Assembly (NCBI GenBank): GCA_031257455.1
Contig: JAIROQ010000050.1
Span: forward strand, 1-11,534
DNA from: Prevotellaceae bacterium
GTDB taxonomy: Bacteria; Bacteroidota; Bacteroidia; Bacteroidales; UBA932
Length of the DNA stretch: 11,534 nt
Reading direction: 5' to 3'
Part shown: positions 219 through 11,534 of the stretch, piece by piece
How the letters are laid out: each line of letters starts with the position of its first letter
Position numbering within the stretch: the stretch's first letter is position 1
Notes under the pieces: generated by a model
Seen by the model: the letters and a program-made list of their open reading frames with translations, nothing else
Database searches by the model: none
Told to the model about the DNA's origin: nothing
Translations under genes and position numbers: made by a program

Positions 219-345
219 AGTCGTTAGTCGTGAGTCGCGGCAAGCGTATTTTAGTTATGAGTTATAAGTTATGAATTATGAGTTACGACAAGCGTAATGG
301 CGTCAGACAACTCATACTTCATACTTCATACCTCATACTTCATAC
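219..345. repeat. Composite heptamer tract with two GC-rich joints
   Basis: Three tandem arrays of 7-nt units lie here: AGTCGTT-like (219-239), GTTATGA-like (254-284) and CTTCATA-like (309-345). They are separated by GC-rich joints: CGGCAAGCG at about 238-246, and CGACAAGCGTAATGGCGTCAG at 286-306, quoted here only to mark its ends GACAAGCG and GGCGTCAG. The second and third arrays are imperfect reverse complements, so the unit could fold into a long hairpin with the joint as its loop. The right array runs into the 3' end of the thioesterase gene and supplies its last codons and stop. Confidence 0.7.
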
Positions 346-3224: not shown

Positions 3225-3376
3225 TTATTTCTGATTTCTGATTTCTGATTTCTAATTTCTGATTTCTGATTTCTGATTTCTGATTGGCTGACGCGCCAGC
3301 AACTCTTAATTTCTGATTTCTAATTTCTGATTGGCTGACGCGCCAGCAACTCTTAACTCTTAGTTCTTAACTCTTA
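3225..3376. repeat. Composite heptamer tract with a duplicated joint
   Basis: From left to right: TTTCTGA/TTTCTAA heptamers, a joint GGCTGACGCGCCAGC (3286-3300), AACTCTTAA, a second run of TTTCTGA/TTTCTAA, the identical joint (3333-3347), then AACTCTT/AGTTCTT heptamers to 3376. The two joints are exactly 47 nt apart, and their flanks (TTTCTGATT before, AACTCTTAA after) also match, so a 47-nt unit has been duplicated. The right end of the tract encodes the final Asp-Lys-Ser region and TAA stop of the EEP-family gene on the minus strand. The left end stops about 4 nt upstream of the glycosyltransferase ATG. Confidence 0.8.
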
Positions 3377-4443
3377 TCTAAAACTGCTACGGCCGGGTAA
3401 TGGTCGGAGTAGCGTATTTTGGGGATATAAAATTGTTTGGCTTTAAAATAATCATCGTTGAAAATATAATCAATACGGAATGCCGGCAACATGCTGCGAA
3501 ACGAAGAGGGAATGCCTGCGCCTGCATCCATGAAAGCGTCCCGCCGGTTGCCTTTCATTTTCCGGTAGGTGTAGGACATGGGCAAGTCATTGAAATCGCC
3601 GCACACCAGCACCGGATAGGGCGAGGCGGCAATATGCGCCGCAACCTTGTCCACCTGTGCGGCGCGTTTCTTAAAGGCATCGCGCAGGCGCACGGTTACC
3701 CGTTTTATTTCGTTATTCCGGCCGGTATCTTCTTTTAGCCGCGAGAAACTCATGGCAAAGTCGAGCCGCGTTGATTCCAGATGATTGTTGTACACGCGGA
3801 CGGTTTGCCCGTCAATGGAAATATCCGTATAAATACAGATGTTCCCGGAGTTGGGGAAAACAATTACGTCCTTTTTCAGGACAGGATGGCGGCTCAATGT
3901 AGCGGTCGTAAACCATGCCCTGCCGTAGAGCCTGCGCGACCGGTAATGAATGTAAGGGTAACGCGGAAAGAGGCGGCGTATGCCGGCCGTATCGAATACC
4001 GCCGCTTCCTGCAAGCACACAATATCGGGGTCTTCCTGTTCGATAAATGCCTTGATGCCCGGCAGTGTTTCCAGTGTCCGGGTGGCGGTATTGACGCCGA
4101 ATAAATGTACGTTGTAGGTGATGATTTTTATTTCACCGTGCTGTGCCGGCCGGCCGGGCTGATGGTCGCCGCTGCGCCATTGCACGTATGCCGGCAGGAA
4201 AAAGAACGCCGGCAGAATGACGGCTATATGCAGCCAGAAGATTTTGCGCTTTACCACTGTCCACAATATCGCCAGCAGGATATTCAGCGCTACCAGTTGC
4301 GGGAACAGCAATCCGAAGAAAGCAAAAAACCATGTGCCGGCAGGATTAACATAGCGCGAGAAGTAAGACATCGCCAATCCGGCCGCTAAAAGCAGGATGC
4401 CTGTCCTGCATATCCACCCTATGATTTGTCGAATTGCGTTCAT
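3367..4443 (-). CDS. Membrane-anchored endonuclease/exonuclease/phosphatase family hydrolase
   Basis: This 358-residue protein has an N-terminal membrane part of about three hydrophobic segments (roughly 12-32, 36-62, 68-86) followed by an EEP (DNase I-like) metal-dependent phosphodiesterase domain from about residue 104. The active-site residues of the fold are all present: Asn111 in ITYNVHLFG, Glu146 in CLQEA, Asn220-His221 in YNNHLES, Asp283 and Asn285 in CGDFND, Asp325 in RIDYIF, and Asp347-His348 in YSDHYP. The substrate (phospholipid head group, nucleic acid or other phosphodiester) cannot be told. The frame is open to a TTG at 4455, but the ATG at 4443-4441 gives a proper start and sits 20 nt after the rhomboid stop. 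Rhomboid-EEP adjacency is, to my knowledge, common in Bacteroidales. The last codons and TAA come from a heptamer tract. Confidence 0.9.
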   Translation of the reverse strand: MNAIRQIIGWICRTGILLLAAGLAMSYFSRYVNPAGTWFFAFFGLLFPQLVALNILLAILWTVVKRKIFWLHIAVILPAFFFLPAYVQWRSGDHQPGRPAQHGEIKIITYNVHLFGVNTATRTLETLPGIKAFIEQEDPDIVCLQEAAVFDTAGIRRLFPRYPYIHYRSRRLYGRAWFTTATLSRHPVLKKDVIVFPNSGNICIYTDISIDGQTVRVYNNHLESTRLDFAMSFSRLKEDTGRNNEIKRVTVRLRDAFKKRAAQVDKVAAHIAASPYPVLVCGDFNDLPMSYTYRKMKGNRRDAFMDAGAGIPSSFRSMLPAFRIDYIFNDDYFKAKQFYIPKIRYSDHYPAVAVLDKS

Positions 4444-4463: not shown

Positions 4464-5180
4464 TCAATAGTACATTCTTCCTTTCCGTTGCCAGTATTTT
4501 ATCAGGATAAACCCGAACAACATGCCGCCTATATGGGCAAAGTGGGCGATGTTGCCGCCGGAATTGACCAGTCCCAACACTAATTCTATCGCGCCGTAGC
4601 CGATAACCACCCATTTGGCTTTCAATGCCACCGGCGGGAAAATAAATTGCAGCACCGTATTCGGATACAACATGCCGAAGCCCAACAACACGCCATACAC
4701 CGCGCCCGATGCGCCTACCATCGGGGTATTCATCGTAACATACCACTGTTGCATGGCCGGCGAGCGATTGACAAAAATGTTTCCTTCCCGCAACAATTCC
4801 TTCATTTGCGCCAAGGTCGCCGTGTCGATTTGCGCTTCGGCATGCAATACCTGTATCCACAGCACCAGCGCATAGAATAACGCCGCGCCGATGCCGGTAA
4901 CCAAATAAAAAGTCAGGAACTTCTTCCCGCCCCACTGGTATTCCAGCGCATTTCCGAATAGCCACAGCGCATACATGTTGAACAGCAAATGCCCGAAACC
5001 GCCGTGCATGAATATATGCGTCAGCAGTTGATAAGGTTTGAACAACGGCGAACCGGGATAGTACAGCGCAAAATGCTCATACATGAAATTGCCCGAAAAA
5101 GTAGTGATAAGCAGCATCGCTACGTTTATCACTATTAAATTCCGCACTATCGGCGGCACGTTCCTTAAAAATCCTGTCAT
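4464..5180 (-). CDS. Rhomboid family intramembrane serine protease
   Basis: This 238-residue polytopic membrane protein is a rhomboid protease, cleaving transmembrane segments of other proteins within the bilayer. The catalytic dyad is visible as Ser158 in GASGAVYG and His216 in AHIGGMLFG. His64 and Asn68 in HGGFGHLLFNMYAL match the oxyanion-side residues of GlpG (His150, Asn154). Six hydrophobic segments can be placed (about 12-28, 52-76, 88-110, 152-172, 188-206, 211-230). A hydrophilic loop of about 40 residues (110-150) separates segments three and four. The ATG at 5180-5178 lies directly beside the large repeat hairpin that separates it from lepA. The stop lies 20 nt before the EEP start, so these two form an operon. 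Confidence 0.93.
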   Translation of the reverse strand: MTGFLRNVPPIVRNLIVINVAMLLITTFSGNFMYEHFALYYPGSPLFKPYQLLTHIFMHGGFGHLLFNMYALWLFGNALEYQWGGKKFLTFYLVTGIGAALFYALVLWIQVLHAEAQIDTATLAQMKELLREGNIFVNRSPAMQQWYVTMNTPMVGASGAVYGVLLGFGMLYPNTVLQFIFPPVALKAKWVVIGYGAIELVLGLVNSGGNIAHFAHIGGMLFGFILIKYWQRKGRMYY

Positions 5181-5182
5181 GT

Positions 5183-5320
5183 TTGTTGAGTTGTTGAGTT
5201 GTTGAGTTGTTGAATTGTTGAATTGTTGAGTTGTTGAGTTGTTGAGTTGTTGATATTGGCGCGTCAGCCAATCAACAGTTCAACAGTTCAACAGTTCAAC
5301 AGTTCAACAGTTCAACATCT
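5183..5320. repeat. 9-nt tandem repeat inverted around a GC-rich joint
   Basis: The left array (5183-5253) repeats TTGTTGAGT/TTGTTGAAT about eight times. The right array (5272-5319) repeats TCAACAGTT about five times. Between them lies the joint TTGGCGCGTCAGCCAA (5256-5271). The arrays are near reverse complements, so the lepA-rhomboid intergenic RNA could fold into an imperfect hairpin of more than 40 bp whose tip is the joint. The lepA TGA stop is read from the edge of the right array, and the left array ends beside the rhomboid ATG. The hairpin could block or attenuate readthrough between the genes; this is inference. Confidence 0.75.
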
Positions 5321-7107
5321 CAATCCAGTTTCAGTACTGCTAAAAACGCCTGTTGCGGCACTTCCACATTGCCGACTTGCCGCATACGTTTCTTACCTTT
5401 CTTTTGTTTTTCCAGCAGTTTCCGTTTCCGCGTGATGTCGCCGCCGTAGCATTTTGCCGTTACGTCTTTGCGCAGGGCTTTGACGGTTTCGCGGGCAATA
5501 ATTTTTGCGCCGATGGCGGCCTGTATGGCAATATCGAACTGCTGGCGCGGGATTAAATCTTTCAGTTTTTCGCACATCCGGCGGCCGAAATCATACGCAT
5601 TGTCGCGGTGGATAAGGCATGACAGCGCATCCACCGGTTCGCCGTTGAGGAGGACGTCTAATTTGACCAAATCGGCCTTTTCGTAACCGATGGTCTGGTA
5701 ATCGAACGAAGCATAGCCGCGCGAAATGCTTTTCAGTTTGTCGTAAAAATCAAAAACAATTTCCGCCAACGGCATATCATAGGTCAGTTCCACCCGCTCG
5801 CTGGTCAGATAATGCTGGCCTTTCAACACGCCGCGCTTGTCGAGGCAGAGTTTCATTATTGCGCCGTAATACTCCGCTTTTGAAATGATTTGGGCACGGA
5901 TATACGGTTCATCTATATGGTCAATCAGCGTAGGGGCGGGCAGTCCCGAGGGGTTGTGCACATGCAGCGCCTCGCCCTGCGTGGTATGCACGATGTACGA
6001 CACATTGGGAACGGTCGTGATGACGTCCATATTGAACTCGCGGTACAGCCGTTCCTGAATAATCTCCATGTGCAGCAAGCCCAGAAAGCCGCACCGAAAG
6101 CCGAAACCCAATGCCAATGACGACTCCGGCTCGAACGTGAGCGAAGCGTCATTCAGTTGCAATTTTTCGATAGACGCGCGCAGGTCTTCGTAGGCGTCGG
6201 CGTCCACCGGGTAGAGGCCGGCAAATACCATCGGCTTGACTTCCTCAAATCCCGCAATGGCTTCCCGGCAGGGCGTTTCCACATGCGTGATAGTATCGCC
6301 TACTTTCACTTCCGGCGCCGTTTTGATGCCGGAGATAATGTATCCCACGTCACCCGTGCGGATTTCATTACGCGGACATAATTTCAATTGCAGGATACCT
6401 ACTTCGTCCGCTTCATATTCTTTGCCGGTATTAAAAAATTTCACTTTGTCGCCCTTGCGTATCACGCCGTTTTGTACCTTGAAATAAGCAATAATCCCGC
6501 GGAATGAATTGAACACCGAATCGAAAATCAATGCCTGTAACGGGGCGGCTTCGCTGCCCGCCGGCGCCGGCACGCGCTGCACGATAGCCTGCAAAATTTC
6601 CGCTATACCGGCGCCGGTCTTGCCGCTGGCCGTAAGCACGGCAGCAGGCGGACAACCGATTAATTCCACTATCTGGTCGCGCACTTCTTCCACCATCGCC
6701 GCCTCCATGTCGATTTTATTGATGACGGGGATAATTTCCAAATCGTGGTTGAGGGCAAGGTAGAGGTTCGAAATGGTTTGCGCCTGTATGCCCTGGGTCG
6801 CATCGACCACCAGCAACGCGCCTTCGCAAGACGCAATGGCACGCGACACTTCATACGAAAAATCCACATGCCCCGGCGTGTCAATGAGGTTCAGCACATA
6901 GTCTGTGCTGTTGTGCCGGTAGCGCATTTGAATGGCGTGGCTTTTTATGGTGATACCTTTTTCCTTTTCCAAATCCATAGAGTCAAGTACCTGCGCCGCC
7001 ATTTCGCGTTCCGTGAGCGTATGTGTCGCCTCGAGCAAACGGTCGGCCAGCGTACTTTTTCCATGGTCTATATGAGCAATGATGCAAAAGTTGCGGATAT
7101 TTTTCAT
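5320..7107 (-). CDS. lepA: Elongation factor 4, ribosome back-translocating GTPase
   Basis: This 595-residue translational GTPase is full length for LepA/EF4, which acts on the ribosome during initiation/elongation under stress and can reverse translocation. GTPase motifs are clear: G1 AHIDHGKST (11-19), switch I EKGITIKS (49-56), G3 DTPGHVDF (76-83) and G4 NKID (130-133). The EF-G-like domains follow, and the LepA-specific C-terminal domain ends in the signature [16 protein letters not shown] and [15 protein letters not shown]. No truncation or frameshift is seen. The ATG at 7107-7105 follows a TATCTTTG box after only 5 nt, suggesting a very short or absent leader. The TGA stop is provided by the start of the 9-nt repeat tract. 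The gene is divergent from mfd across a 525-bp repeat-rich spacer. Confidence 0.98.
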
Positions 7108-7120: not shown

Positions 7121-7138
7121 ACAAAAATAAGTCGTTTT

Positions 7139-7258
7139 TGTTGATTTGTTGAATTGTTGAACTGTTGAATTGTTGAACTGTTGATTTGTTGAACTGTTGA
7201 CAGGCTGGCGCGTCAGTCAATCTTTAAATCTTTGAATTTTTAAATCTTTAAATCCTTC
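7139..7258. repeat. 9-nt and 8-nt repeat arrays joined by a GC-rich core
   Basis: An array of TTGTTGAAC/TTGTTGAAT units (7139-7200) is joined through GACAGGCTGGCGCGTCAGTC (7199-7218) to an array of AATCTTTA-like 8-nt units (7219-7256). Unlike the lepA-rhomboid tract, the two arrays are unrelated to each other, so no long hairpin forms; only the joint is shared. The tract lies just upstream of the lepA -7 box, where the -33 region would be. Confidence 0.7.
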
Positions 7259-7259
7259 C

Positions 7260-7519
7260 GGCGTCAGCCCAATTAGTCACATTAGCACATTAATTCCTTA
7301 TTTTAATAACAAAACAGCCTTAGTAGTACTACATGCCCCGCCCTGCACATCGCGCGGCGCACGGGTTTTCCGCGATGCACCGGCAGTATGCCGCGCGAAA
7401 GGCAGGAGGCTACTTTGTATCCCCGCGCTTACGCACGGGGTTATTCACATTTCGCCCCTTCGGGGCTAATTAATGTGCTAATGTGGAAATGTGCTAATGT
7501 GACTAATTGGGCTGACGCC
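7260..7519. mobile_element. Inverted-repeat element with hairpin-rich centre (MITE-like)
   Basis: A 36-nt left arm (7260-7295, starting GGCGTCAGCCCAATTAG) matches the reverse complement of a right arm (7468-7519, ending CTAATTGGGCTGACGCC). The right arm carries an extra 16-nt copy of its inner repeat (7486-7501). The 172-nt centre is more GC-rich than its surroundings and dense in perfect short stems: GTAGTACTAC (7323-7332), CATCGCG with CGCGATG (7348-7354/7371-7377), CGGCA with TGCCG (7381-7393), CCCCG with CGGGG (7421-7440) and GCCCC with GGGGC (7454-7466). No ORF of note is inside. The layout fits a miniature inverted-repeat transposable element or a structured RNA gene. The arm ends are also the GC-rich joint found throughout the window, so the arms may simply be two facing repeat tracts. 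Confidence 0.5.
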
Positions 7520-7609
7520 ACTAACCACTAATCACTAAAATGGCGACAGGCGCACTGTCGAAAAGTCGCAAATCGAATATCGAGTATCGAAAAGTCGAGT
7601 ATCGAATTT
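7519..7609. repeat. Heptamer tracts with a small hairpin joint upstream of mfd
   Basis: CACTAAC-like heptamers (7519-7540) meet TCGAATA/TCGAGTA-like heptamers (about 7558-7609) at a joint containing GCGACAGGCGCACTGTCG (7543-7560). CGACAG (7544-7549) pairs perfectly with CTGTCG (7555-7560) around a 5-nt loop. The right array ends about 6 nt before the mfd -7 box. Confidence 0.6.
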
Positions 7610-7614
7610 TTTAA

Positions 7615-7632: not shown

Positions 7633-10600
7633 GTGGATGCAGAAACATTAGTCAGACATTTTTCCGGACAGGAGGCTTTCCGGAAATTACATTCGCAATA
7701 CGCCGCGAATGAGAGGCAGGTTATGCTCCTGCATGGCCTGCACGGCGCGGCACGCACGCTGGCGGTAGCGGGACTGTTCAATACTTCGCCCGGAAATGTT
7801 ATATACATCGCGCCCAGCCGCGACTCCGCCGAATACCGCTGCCACGATTTGGAACTGTGGTGCAATCCCGAACATGTTTTCTTCCTTCCCGCTTCTTTCA
7901 AGCGCAGCATCGAATATGGACAGCCCGACACGTCACACAGAGTACAGCGTACCGCTGCACTGAATGCCCTGCGCACCGGCCTGTCGTGCATTGTGGTTAC
8001 TTATCCCGAAGCGTTGGCCGAGCTGGTGGTCGCCCGCGAAGAGATGGCGCGTAACTTGTTGCCGTTGCATACCGGCGAACATATTTCCATGGATTTCCTC
8101 TGTGAAACCCTGCATTCCTACGGCTTCGAGCGGGTCGATTTTGTGGCGGAACCCGGCCAGTATGCCGTGCGCGGAAGTATTGTCGATGTATTTTCTTTCG
8201 CCGGAAACCTTCCCTGCCGCATCGACTTTTTCGGCAACGAGGTGGAAAGTATCCGCACGTTCCATGTCAATACGCAACTGTCGGCGCAACGGTTGCCACA
8301 GGTAGAAATCATTGCGGACTTGCAGGAAACCGCCGGCGCTTCCCGGCGTTCCACCTTGCTTGAGTTTGCCGGCAGCCCGCTAACCGTATGGGTGGAAGAA
8401 TGGAAATATACACTCGGCATGTTGGAATTATTGTGGGAAAAAGAGCCGCTGCGCCCGGACCTGATGCCGCCGGAAGCCCTACTTGCCGCAGCGGGCGGCA
8501 AACATTTTCCGGCAGGTAAAGAAACAACCGTCCTCATCTCCGTCCCCTGCGCACCGTCCGGCTCCCTCTCCTCTGGGGAGGGTTGGGGGGAGGCGTCCTT
8601 TGCCACTTCTCCGCAACCGGTATTCAACAAAAATTTCGAGTTGCTCGCCGCCGACATCGCCGCGCACGCCGAACAGGGCTACCGGACATTTATCTTTTCA
8701 GGAAACAGCGCACAGACGGAACGGCTGAAAGCGGTTTTTACTTCTATCAAGAAAACGCATCTCCCGTTTGAGTTTGTACCGTTCACGCCGCACGAAGGAT
8801 TCATCGACCACACGCTGCGTATCTGCTGCTACACCGACCACCAGTTGTTCGAGCGTTATCACCGCGTGCCGTTGCGCCGCGCCGTAGAGAAAAACGAACG
8901 GCTGACATGGCAGGAATTGACCGGCATGCAAACCGGCGATTATATCGTGCATATCGACCACGGCATCGGCGTCTTCGGCGGATTGGTGAAAATGCACGTG
9001 AAGGGGAAAATACAGGAAGCGGTGAAACTGGTTTACCGCGATAATGACGTCCTGTTCGTCAATATACACGGGCTGCACCGCATTGCGAAGTACAAAAGCA
9101 GGGACAGCGAACCGCCGAAAATAAACAAACTCGGCAGCGCGACATGGCAAAACATGAAGCAATCGGCCAAAAGGAAAGTAAAGGATATTGCCCGCGAACT
9201 CATTGCCCTGTATGCCCTGCGCAAACAGACCAAAGGCTTTGCCTTTGCCGGCGACACTTACCTGCAGCACGAACTGGAGGCGTCATTTATTTATGAAGAC
9301 ACACCCGACCAGCTCAAAGCTACACAAGCCGTGAAAGCCGATATGGAACGCCCCTACCCCATGGACAGGCTCATTTGCGGAGACGTGGGTTTCGGGAAAA
9401 CGGAGGTGGCTATCCGCGCGGCATTCAAAGCCGCAGCCGACAGCAAACAGGTCGCCGTGCTGGTGCCGACCACCATTCTGGCATTGCAGCATTATAAAAC
9501 ATTTTCGGCACGGCTGGCCGATTTCCCGGTAACGGTCGATTATGTATCGCGCCTGCGTTCCGCCAGACAGGGCAGGGAAACATTGCAGGCGCTGGCGCAG
9601 GGAAAAGTCGATATCATTATCGGCACGCACAAACTGCTGGGCAAGGACGTACGCTTCAAAGAGCTGGGACTGCTCATCATTGACGAAGAACAAAAGTTCG
9701 GCGTATCGGCAAAAGAAAAACTGCGGCAACTGAAACTCCACGTGGATACGCTGGCCATGACCGCCACGCCTATCCCGCGCACATTGCAGTTTTCGCTGAT
9801 GGGCGCGCGCGACCTGTCCCTCATCCACACGCCGCCGCCCAACCGCCATCCGATAGTTACGGAAGTGCATCCGTTCCACGAAAACATTATCCGCGATGCT
9901 ATCCGGCACGAAATACAGCGCGGCGGGCAAGTGTTTTTCGTGCACAACCGCGTGGAGGACATTCAGGCAATGGCCGACACGCTCCGGCGTATCTGTCCGG
10001 AAGCATCGCTTGACATCGGGCATGGGCAAATGCCTTCCGGCCAACTGGAAAAAGTAATACTCGGATTTATGAACGGCGATTTCGACATACTGCTCTGCAC
10101 GACTATCATCGAAAACGGACTGGATATACCGAATGCGAACACGATTATCGTAGATAACGCACAGTATTTCGGGTTAAGCGATTTGCACCAGTTGCGCGGC
10201 CGCGTGGGGCGTTCCAACCGCAAAGCCTTCTGTTACCTGCTCGCGCCGCCGCCCATAGCCCTCACCGAAGACGCCCGCCGCCGCCTGAAAGCCATTGAAA
10301 CATTTTCGGAACTGGGCAGCGGCTTCAATATCGCCATGCAAGACCTCGATATTCGCGGCGCAGGCAACCTTCTGGGCGGCGAACAAAGCGGATTTATCGC
10401 AGATATCGGATTTGAAACCTACCAGAAAATCCTGAACGAAGCGCTATCTGAAATGGAGAATGGAGAAGGGAGAGTGGAGAATGACGACAAGCGCACAGTG
10501 GCGCCAGCCCACTCTCCACTCTCCCTTCTCCATTCTCCATTTATTGCCGACTGCGCCATTGATACCGACATGGAGATACTGATTCCCGACAGCTATGTCG

Positions 10601-11001
10601 GCAACGCCACCGAAAAGCTGCGCCTCTACAAGGAAATGGACAATATCACGGACGAAGGACAATTGCAAAAAATGATTGCCGAACTGACCGACCGCTTCGG
10701 CGCACTGCCGCCCGAAGTGAAGCAACTGTGCGATATTGTCCGGTTGCGGCGCCGGGCGATGATGCTGGGATTTGAAAAAATAACGCTTAAAAATAAACTG
10801 ATGATTGCTTATTTCGTGAGCAACCAGCAGTCGAATTATTACCGGTCGCCGCTATTTGCCCATATTTTACGGTATATTCAGGAACATCCCAAAGTTTTTA
10901 CCGTAAAAGAACAGCACAGCAAATTATCCCTGACAGTGAAAAATGTCCCCACCGTCCGCCACGCCATTGAAGTGCTGACGCTGCTGCAAATTAAGAATTA
11001 G
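7633..11001 (+). CDS. mfd: Transcription-repair coupling factor
   Basis: This 1122-residue DNA translocase removes RNA polymerase stalled at lesions and recruits UvrA for nucleotide excision repair. In order: a UvrB-like module (about 1-330) with a degenerate P-loop (GLHGAARTLA, 36-45); the CarD-like RNA polymerase interaction domain with GDYIVHIDHGIG (435-446); the translocase core with Walker A GDVGFGKT (583-590), DEEQ box (684-687), TATPIPRT, CTTIIENGLDIPN and QLRGRVGRSNR; the TRG motif (about 885-920, LDIRGAGNLLGGEQSGF); and the C-terminal UvrA-masking domain. The start is GTG at 7633; an in-frame TAA at 7612 leaves no earlier option and the first ATG is residue 31. Two linkers carry in-frame palindromic repeat DNA: about residues 307-322 and 940-970. 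Total length is still normal, so the inserts probably replaced flexible sequence. The last codons and TAG are repeat-derived. Confidence 0.97.
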   Translation: MDAETLVRHFSGQEAFRKLHSQYAANERQVMLLHGLHGAARTLAVAGLFNTSPGNVIYIAPSRDSAEYRCHDLELWCNPEHVFFLPASFKRSIEYGQPDTSHRVQRTAALNALRTGLSCIVVTYPEALAELVVAREEMARNLLPLHTGEHISMDFLCETLHSYGFERVDFVAEPGQYAVRGSIVDVFSFAGNLPCRIDFFGNEVESIRTFHVNTQLSAQRLPQVEIIADLQETAGASRRSTLLEFAGSPLTVWVEEWKYTLGMLELLWEKEPLRPDLMPPEALLAAAGGKHFPAGKETTVLISVPCAPSGSLSSGEGWGEASFATSPQPVFNKNFELLAADIAAHAEQGYRTFIFSGNSAQTERLKAVFTSIKKTHLPFEFVPFTPHEGFIDHTLRICCYTDHQLFERYHRVPLRRAVEKNERLTWQELTGMQTGDYIVHIDHGIGVFGGLVKMHVKGKIQEAVKLVYRDNDVLFVNIHGLHRIAKYKSRDSEPPKINKLGSATWQNMKQSAKRKVKDIARELIALYALRKQTKGFAFAGDTYLQHELEASFIYEDTPDQLKATQAVKADMERPYPMDRLICGDVGFGKTEVAIRAAFKAAADSKQVAVLVPTTILALQHYKTFSARLADFPVTVDYVSRLRSARQGRETLQALAQGKVDIIIGTHKLLGKDVRFKELGLLIIDEEQKFGVSAKEKLRQLKLHVDTLAMTATPIPRTLQFSLMGARDLSLIHTPPPNRHPIVTEVHPFHENIIRDAIRHEIQRGGQVFFVHNRVEDIQAMADTLRRICPEASLDIGHGQMPSGQLEKVILGFMNGDFDILLCTTIIENGLDIPNANTIIVDNAQYFGLSDLHQLRGRVGRSNRKAFCYLLAPPPIALTEDARRRLKAIETFSELGSGFNIAMQDLDIRGAGNLLGGEQSGFIADIGFETYQKILNEALSEMENGEGRVENDDKRTVAPAHSPLSLLHSPFIADCAIDTDMEILIPDSYVGNATEKLRLYKEMDNITDEGQLQKMIAELTDRFGALPPEVKQLCDIVRLRRRAMMLGFEKITLKNKLMIAYFVSNQQSNYYRSPLFAHILRYIQEHPKVFTVKEQHSKLSLTVKNVPTVRHAIEVLTLLQIKN
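8555..8598. repeat. In-frame GC-rich palindrome inside mfd
   Basis: CCCTCTCC (8564-8571) pairs with GGGGAGGG (8575-8582) around a TCT loop, with one G-T wobble, and is followed by a G-run ending GGAGGC. The DNA resembles a palindrome seen between genes in many bacteria. Here it is translated as a Gly/Ser-rich stretch around SLSSGEGWGEA (about residues 311-321), just before TSPQPVFNKNF, which looks like normal Mfd sequence again. The linker lies at the end of the UvrB-like module. Confidence 0.6.
10451..10542. repeat. In-frame 92-bp palindromic repeat element inside mfd
   Basis: Two arms, 10451-10480 and 10513-10542, are perfect 30-bp reverse complements built of about four 7-nt units (ATGGAGA-like). 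The 32-nt loop contains GACGACAAGCGCAC and GGCGCCAGCCC, the same core found at the intergenic joint 286-306. It is read through without a stop as residues of about 940-970, between the helix after the TRG motif and IADCAIDTDMEILIPD. Mfd homologues have a variable acidic linker there. Confidence 0.85.
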
Positions 11002-11216
11002 GAATTGGAGTGACCATTTACAGATTTGGAAATGTGCTAATGTGACTAATGTGCTAATGTGACTAATTGGGCTGGCGCGGTAGCCTGTCAACAATTCAAC
11101 AATTCAACAACTCAAAATTAAGCGTTGCCTGAGCCACATCAACCAACTACTTTAACTACTCTAACTACTCTAACTACTCTAACTACTTTAACTACCTTAA
11201 CTCCTCTAACTCCCTA
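10990..11216. repeat. Composite repeat region between mfd and the converging gene
   Basis: From the mfd end: ATTAAGAATTAGGAATTGG units that supply the mfd stop (10990-11008), an AATGTGCT/AATGTGACT array (11029-11066), the joint GGGCTGGCGCGGTAGCCTGTC shortened here to its ends GGGCTGGCGC and GCCTGTC (11069-11089), CAACAATT units (11089-11115), a possible decayed joint TAAGCGTTGCCTGAGCC (11119-11135), and CTAACTACT 9-nt units (11146-11216). The last array supplies the TAG stop of the gene on the minus strand. No separate terminator hairpin with a T-run is visible for either converging gene. Confidence 0.7.
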
Positions 11217-11534
11217 AGGTATTACTGCGCTCTGTATGGCGTTCCAGGGGCCTTTTTCGCCGGTGGTGTTTTCCCAGCGGAGGGCGAAGTACAGGGTTCT
11301 GCCACGCTGTTCATCCGGGAAAGTCAGGCGGAAAGGCGTGTGCGTGTCGAATGAAGAATGGGTGAGTTCCTCGTGGCTCGCGGGCGGCTCGTGGAGGACT
11401 GCCCATATCATTTCCGCGCCCTGCACACCAAAAGGTTTGCTCTTCTTTTCCGTGCCCTGCTCGTGGAAATGAACTTCTATGATACCCACGCCCACCAATA
11501 TCACAAATGCTTCTACAAAGGTAGTAGGCACGGG
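11214..11534 (-). CDS. C-terminal part of a hypothetical protein, cut by window edge
   Basis: The minus-strand frame is open from the right edge to a TAG at 11216-11214, giving at least 106 residues. The GTG at 11531 is probably an internal Val, because the frame continues upstream through the edge. The sequence ends in a pattern I associate with conserved Bacteroidota proteins of unknown function: KPFGVQGAEMIW, FDTHTPFRL, QRGRTLYFALRWENTTGEKGPW. The Trp- and aromatic-rich strands and the LRWENTTGEKGPW stretch resemble a fibronectin type III-like beta fold. No catalytic motif is visible. It converges on mfd across a repeat-filled spacer, and its stop codon lies at the start of the CTAACTACT array. 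I cannot assign a function. Confidence 0.7.
   Translation of the reverse strand, partial: PVPTTFVEAFVILVGVGIIEVHFHEQGTEKKSKPFGVQGAEMIWAVLHEPPASHEELTHSSFDTHTPFRLTFPDEQRGRTLYFALRWENTTGEKGPWNAIQSAVIP

Follow-up and report, generated by a model that had tools for sequence, protein, structure and literature searches.

The common view is that housekeeping genes are purged of repeats. In cyanobacteria, the small dispersed repeats (SDR) of Elhai (2008) reportedly consist of a 20–27 nt core embedded in heptamer arrays. Cyanobacterial heptanucleotide repeats had been described by Mazel in 1990, as outlined in PMC4692102. Rickettsia palindromic elements (RPE) appear in passages of PMC10969869 and PMC3733652 as palindromic families of ∼150 bp that are inserted in frame in unrelated genes. 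REP/REPIN sequences with RAYT are summarized as short dispersed palindromes (PMC3116915, PMC3733652), and a passage of the latter source reports CGTC-type repeats in Bacteroidetes. PARCELs are sketched in PMC2996958 as dispersed coding tandem repeats with dyad symmetry, whose 25-residue protein repeat is found in ORFs that have no function assigned to them. Our literature search, for which most subscription journals lay outside the scope, turned up no article describing heptamer arrays for the Bacteroidales.

Here we analyze an 11,534-nt stretch of DNA (the window), which is contig C153 of a fragmented 1.59-Mb genome of the order Bacteroidales in 225 contigs (G000; related genomes carry handles of the same form). 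Its relatives in public records include MAGs labelled "Prevotellaceae bacterium" and "Bacteroidales bacterium".

Results

The mfd gene (7633–11001, plus strand) encodes a transcription-repair coupling factor of 1122 aa with matches to Pfam TRCF, DEAD, UvrB_inter, and CarD_TRCF_RID. It hosts, on the same strand and in frame, a 92-bp element at 10451–10542, which is delimited by its inverted repeat, exact arms and translation and which falls in the Mfd linker (about residues 940–970). The left arm (10451–10480) consists of four ATGGAGA-type heptamers (ATGGAGA ATGGAGA AGGGAGA GTGGAGA) with a consensus word that is stop-free on both strands. The right arm (10513–10542) is its exact reverse complement at 30 of 30 positions, and the 32-nt centre (10481–10512) contains the conserved core CGACAAGCGCACAGTGGCGCCAGCCCA at 10485–10511. 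Inward of the arms, one mismatch is followed by two more pairs, extending the match to 33 nt at 97%. Perfect arms in dinucleotide shuffles of the window (n = 60) reach at most 13 nt (mean 10), compared with 30 nt in the real sequence. The RNA fold of 10430–10560 has an energy of −71.3 kcal/mol (z = −10.8), and 0 of 200 shuffles are equally stable. The element translates as ...SEMENGEGRVENDDKRTVAPAHSPLSLLHSPFIADC... in the mfd frame. The initial annotation had described a perfect 30-bp heptamer inverted repeat in mfd that is translated without a stop and surrounds the same core as the intergenic joints. The first two points are confirmed by the arm pairing and by the open 1122-aa frame, and the third holds in the sense that CGACAAGCGCACAGTGGCGCCAGCC, the core here, represents a variant of the joint at 286–306. 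In the other-strand reading, the Mfd core exceeds the commonest intergenic form by two bases.

Related composites occupy the intergenic regions of the window. TTATGAG-type arrays at 231–345 (minus strand) contain the core at 286–306, and 8-mer arrays at 5180–5323 are inverted around TTGGCGCGTCAGCCAA. A repeat search located heptamer arrays at 3226–3378 (minus strand) that are joined twice by GGCTGACGCGCCAGC, and 8-mers followed by a 9-mer array downstream of mfd (11022–11218). Repeat search and sequence together define arrays with the joints GGCTGGCGCGTCAG and GGCGTCAGCC at 7138–7300, and arrays with the joints GGGCTGACGCC plus a variant core upstream of mfd at 7465–7610. When the lepA flanks were surveyed across the genus, the start pattern matched lepA in two of seven loci (G004 and G006).

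The core is dispersed. Searching with its other-strand reading CTGACGCCACTGCGCTTGTCG at ≤3 mismatches, we find 92 matches in G000, 10 in G007, 9 in G002, 4 in G004 and 1 in G001, and none in the other four of the nine genus members; any match is found in 9 of 99 genomes. Four genomes outside the genus have a single 3-mismatch match each, which is no more than chance would give, because the backwards control gives one match each in three non-genus genomes; it gives 0 in all nine genus genomes. The longer core CGACAAGCGCACAGTGGCGCCAGCCCA (≤3 mismatches) has four copies in G000 and one in G007. The word TGGAGAR matches 142 times in G000, 149 in G007, 185 in G001, 12 in G008 and 0 in the other five, and GGCAGTN 97 times in G000, 94 in G007, 78 in G001, 9 in G005 and 0–2 in the other five, with controls at 0 for both; these are overlapping matches, so that one array scores several times. 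The DNA surrounding 30 of the core loci is built as a chain of arrays, in which words of 7 to 8 nt, drawn from a vocabulary common to the loci, are repeated in tandem and the core or its halves form the joints. The suggestion of the initial annotation that the family is mobile or can be copied into coding DNA thus stands as regards a dispersed family with in-frame copies, and mobility itself is suggested by the spread; we found no enzyme that moves the repeat.

To describe the arrays, we scanned periods 5–11 in samples of 83–175 kb from six genus genomes (consecutively numbered contigs, runs of N excluded). Words of 7 or 8 nt account for 37 of 40 arrays in G000, 36 of 37 in G007, 20 of 22 in G001, 16 of 16 in G002, 26 of 27 in G005 and 8 of 11 in G006. 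The motif CT[GT]NCGC is found at array ends pointing outward in 27/84 cases in G007, 15/60 in G001, 9/42 in G002, 14/68 in G005, 11/96 in G000 and 0/32 in G006, against a background of 1.1–1.5% in random stretches. It points inward in 21 cases in G007, 11 in G001, 6 in G002, 8 in G005, 4 in G000 and 0 in G006, partly because the palindromic form of the motif is self-complementary, and its outward polarity is only weakly shown. A second motif, CGRCAAGCG, is present at array ends in G000 only (7/96 outward, 2 inward). Hairpins with array arms occur in the G000, G001, G005 and G007 samples, and none were found in those of G002 and G006. Several hairpins from G001 and G005 and that of the window centre on or near GGCTGGCGCCAGCC, which is missing from others in G000.

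We then compared the arms of 60 distinct core copies (up to 4 mismatches, N-free, with 60 nt of flank on each side). This set is mainly intergenic and mainly from G000; it leaves out L061–L140 and the extended core variant present in mfd, and it includes a few copies from elsewhere (e.g. L142 and L141, the latter likely a chance match). The left arm of a copy resembles its own right arm no more closely than the right arm of another copy (mean 7.93 versus 7.82; scores ≥12 in 6/60 versus 96/1177). Palindromy as a family-wide rule is thus ruled out for the core copies tested, and hairpin-templated copying cannot be the rule because these arms do not match. Most core copies join unrelated arrays. 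By eye, the same word is found on both arms in the Mfd, C8 and C100 elements and in the Mfd element of G007, and different words in C142. Among C8, C100, C142 and the window's own copy, one core is thus combined with various arm words, and the conservation of the whole element that is a trait of RPEs is not found here, the arm word varying among copies of one core. A register test of hairpin-templated arm matching was favourable in 10 of 13 elements but is biased, as these were mostly taken from the hairpin search or cut by eye; the C100 element was cut asymmetrically, and its low score is uninformative.

Words that are stop-free on both strands would be favoured in genes because heptamer arrays run through all frames and a palindrome presents both strands. 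Six of seven coding rows, which represent four distinct words picked by eye, are open on both strands, and the CarB row is open on the coding strand only. Among the 143 arrays of 7- or 8-mers in the six samples (all such arrays, mostly but not only intergenic), 14 have words open on both strands, compared with 18.5 expected from letter-shuffled words. Together with the small number of distinct coding words, this weakens stop-free words as a sign of selection, and a filter for them inside genes is logical but not demonstrated.

The Mfd linker differs among relatives. The relatives at 84–85% identity over the protein contain other heptamer elements in the linker, with GGCAGTC-type words and a different core, and many more distant ones have plain linkers. 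P0002, an Mfd of separate origin with 90% identity across the part searched, shares the window's element, with a left arm that is longer by 7 aa (21 bp, or three heptamers) and an equal right arm. Among the best 36 Mfd proteins inspected by eye, heptamer-type linkers are present in seven (P0001–P0005, P0013, P0018) and possibly in three more (P0010, P0014, P0033). An ancestral conserved segment, which would have contradicted the initial annotation, is ruled out: the relatives do not all carry the same residues, their linkers being plain or occupied by other heptamer elements. Linker lengths were taken by regular expression in 103 of 120 proteins including that of the window (the other 17 were dropped), and the spacing between QSG and the TD motif comes to 60 for the window against a median of 56. 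The element thus mostly replaced the linker; of the earlier statement that it adds or replaces about 30 residues, replacement is upheld and an addition of 30 is not, the net gain being about four residues over the median homologue.

We modelled the C-terminal 262 residues of Mfd using 50 of 78 sequences (the window plus 77). The longest stretch with pLDDT <50 lies within the element (fragment residues 84–101), which is preceded by a helix of low-to-middling confidence and followed by a well predicted C-terminal domain. The element aligns around residues 990–1003 of E. coli Mfd, which we take to be the D6–D7 interdomain linker. Its position in a predicted flexible linker ahead of the C-terminal domain agrees with the proposal that it is tolerated there. 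In Mfd the element would now act as an unstructured connection from the helicase part to the C-terminal TRCF domain, probably without any specific role.

A second variable site is found in Mfd around residue 300. In the window it contains a different, GC-rich short inverted repeat identified by sequence, CTCCCTCTCC..GGGGAGGG (8562–8592, plus strand), whose exact pattern is limited to the window's own loci among 367 loci. It looks like a short GC-rich inverted repeat, CCCCTCCCCTGCCCT..GGGAGGT, that is found in frame in two G001 genes (L191, ∼1260–1330; L359) at places where G000 has heptamer elements. In G007, the Mfd sequence ends before the linker site, and a 92-bp element with the same word and core as that of the window is located at residue ∼300; P0002, judged by residues, has a second such element at this site. 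The G007 element and the window element are equal in length and identical at 76 of 92 bases (83%), and a copy in contig C8 of G000 shares 79/92 bases with the window element and 84/92 with the G007 element. Thus, 92-bp elements with one word and one core occupy three different sites in two species, and copies with a common word and core are 83–91% identical.

Besides Mfd, in-frame copies are present in a metallophosphatase/PQQ gene, a histidine kinase, an esterase and CarB, and orthologues without the respective array exist for the first three. In-frame insertion in otherwise conserved genes, a trait of RPEs, is therefore found in Mfd and four other genes, and the parallel to RPEs drawn in the initial annotation is borne out as a way of working, with in-frame copies in unrelated genes. 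The metallophosphatase/PQQ/golvesin gene of G000 (C8) has four internal elements. Its counterpart in G005 is one open frame of 1581 aa without them, and G001 has repeats of other sequence at all four positions, three of them heptamer arrays and the remaining one a short GC-rich repeat. The G000 gene (L144, 9562–14830) is divided between two frames; the fourth array, which is open in both, forms their overlap. ACTGCC-type arrays seem to encode its leader or signal-peptide region (L144, about 14690–14812, minus strand), and an array of this type seems to encode the beginning of the mature part in a GH3 enzyme (L206, 3701–3900).

The open frame of the histidine kinase (C9) is 666 codons long and holds an array upstream of its HisKA domain; its orthologues in G002, G005 and G007 have 575–582 codons and a plain linker, and that in G001 has another element. 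The esterase (C186) contains two elements, and at the first site G001 has a short GC-rich repeat instead. In CarB (G000 C23; L209, 1880–1940), one loop holds a different heptamer-like insert in each of G000, G001, G002, G005 and G007, and the G003 protein has a short loop; in this survey the search pattern did not match the G006 and G008 sites, and G004 gave no CarB match. Inspected by eye for MITE-type traits, orthologous sites show a replaced linker, and no target duplication was seen. Tandem palindromic repeats of a different type were also noted: a repeat of CGTACATGTACGGAATACTTT lies within a 297-aa ORF (L154, 7568–7685), and G005 has repeats with the units TTTTGCGCAAGTGCAAA (L259, 8188–8318) and TATTGAGCTCAATA (L265, 66–206).

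Discussion

The repeat is dispersed over several genomes, its constant core is combined with varied arm words, and the same word and core recur at unrelated genes. Array-free orthologous sites exist, the Mfd linker has mostly been replaced rather than extended, and the left arms of one close Mfd pair differ by a 21-bp step. The reading that we favour, and regard as likely, is that of a small dispersed repeat shared by several species of a Bacteroidales genus, which spreads by DNA copying and is kept as a linker, the Mfd stretch being an in-frame copy. A family member would consist of 7- or 8-nt words repeated in tandem, in many cases with a short conserved GC-rich motif at the end, GGCTGRCGCC (in the species of the window also CGACAAGCGC). 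Two arrays would be joined head to head at their GC-rich motifs, and the same word on both would yield a long hairpin. Copies would spread through some DNA-copying process, and their arms would lengthen by slippage and might occasionally be kept matched through hairpin-templated copying. Selection would then keep those copies within genes that sit in surface linkers, in frame and without an in-frame stop. The replacement of linkers without recognizable boundaries does not look like cut-and-paste transposition.

How much of an element is inherited may be seen differently. Possibly, though we are doubtful, only a joint of ∼10–25 nt is inherited and the arms are rewritten at each site, with the word set by the local array or by similar codons, and survivors ending up in linkers and perhaps in signal peptides. 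Insertion at matching codons, judged by eye at six sites, fits metallophosphatase sites 1, 3 and 4 and CarB, and does not fit metallophosphatase site 2 or the histidine kinase. We think it rather unlikely that there is no movement between loci and that elements grow in place, with word-like codons of unconstrained linkers being expanded by slippage and quasi-palindromes being perfected by template switching. Such growth would account for different words in the same linker across species, for the modest identity (83–91%) of copies with a common word and core, for the word-like codons GGAGAATG in the short CarB loop of G003, and for those (GGCAGT, TGGAGA, CAGTGG) beside metallophosphatase sites 1, 3 and 4, the latter being found in repeat-bearing alleles. 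It does not readily explain a 21–27 nt core common to unrelated loci, one word and one core in 92 bp at three sites in two species, or the G005 allele, which lacks the word at metallophosphatase site 2. The five different CarB loop inserts in five species could equally be growth in place, which may be most plausible for such single-array inserts.

Movement of a REPIN by a RAYT (Y1 transposase) would be in line with one Y1_Tnp match each in G000 (L196, C217:239–583) and G002 (L197, C78), and the repeat next to the G000 gene has a TGAC loop, like the GGC-TGAC-GCC of the core. However, each Y1 gene is flanked by a different repeat of its own (CCGTCCCTGACGGGACGG in G000, a GTAGTAG-containing repeat in G002), and no Y1_Tnp match was found in the heptamer-rich G001 genome (94% complete) or in the other six of nine genomes, several of which are incomplete. 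RAYT as the mover of the element is thus not supported, and we regard it as very improbable. A contingency locus, in which heptamer arrays switch the frame and thereby turn genes on and off, seems improbable as well: the metallophosphatase/PQQ gene, split in G000 over two frames meeting in array 4 and a single 1581-aa frame in G005, would suit it, but Mfd and CarB serve housekeeping functions, and the 21-bp difference within the single close Mfd pair (90% identical) keeps the frame. The MAG is fragmented (225 contigs), yet an assembly or binning artefact is hardly credible, because P0002, from another source, has the same element, assemblies of sister species carry related ones, and comparable elements occupy the same site in P0002–P0005.

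On the favoured reading, a single repeat family has remodelled linkers in Mfd, CarB, a kinase and an esterase of one genus. It would be a second case, unrelated to that in Rickettsia, of repeats supplying new protein sequence to old genes. Since array-free orthologues are available, the rules of the family (frame, choice of linker, 21-bp steps) can be measured.

Among known systems, PARCELs resemble the present family as dispersed coding tandem repeats with dyad symmetry, whereas here the units have 7 nt and are found in linkers of conserved enzymes. REP/REPIN sequences are likewise short dispersed palindromes, but the core described here is not the repeat that flanks the Y1 gene of the genome, contrary to what an association with RAYT would require, and the arms are tandem arrays. 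With RPEs our family shares palindromic repeats in frame within unrelated genes; it differs by its tandem-heptamer arms, whose word changes among copies while the core stays constant. The cyanobacterial heptamer/SDR repeats combine dispersed, degenerate heptamer arrays with an embedded short dispersed core, and we find both here, although in another phylum, with in-frame copies in housekeeping genes and with some arms forming matched palindromes. We do not claim membership in the RPE or SDR families, the likeness being one of build and way of working. By this analogy, we read the family as a putative Bacteroidales counterpart of the cyanobacterial heptamer/SDR repeats, with a behaviour like that of Rickettsia palindromic elements.
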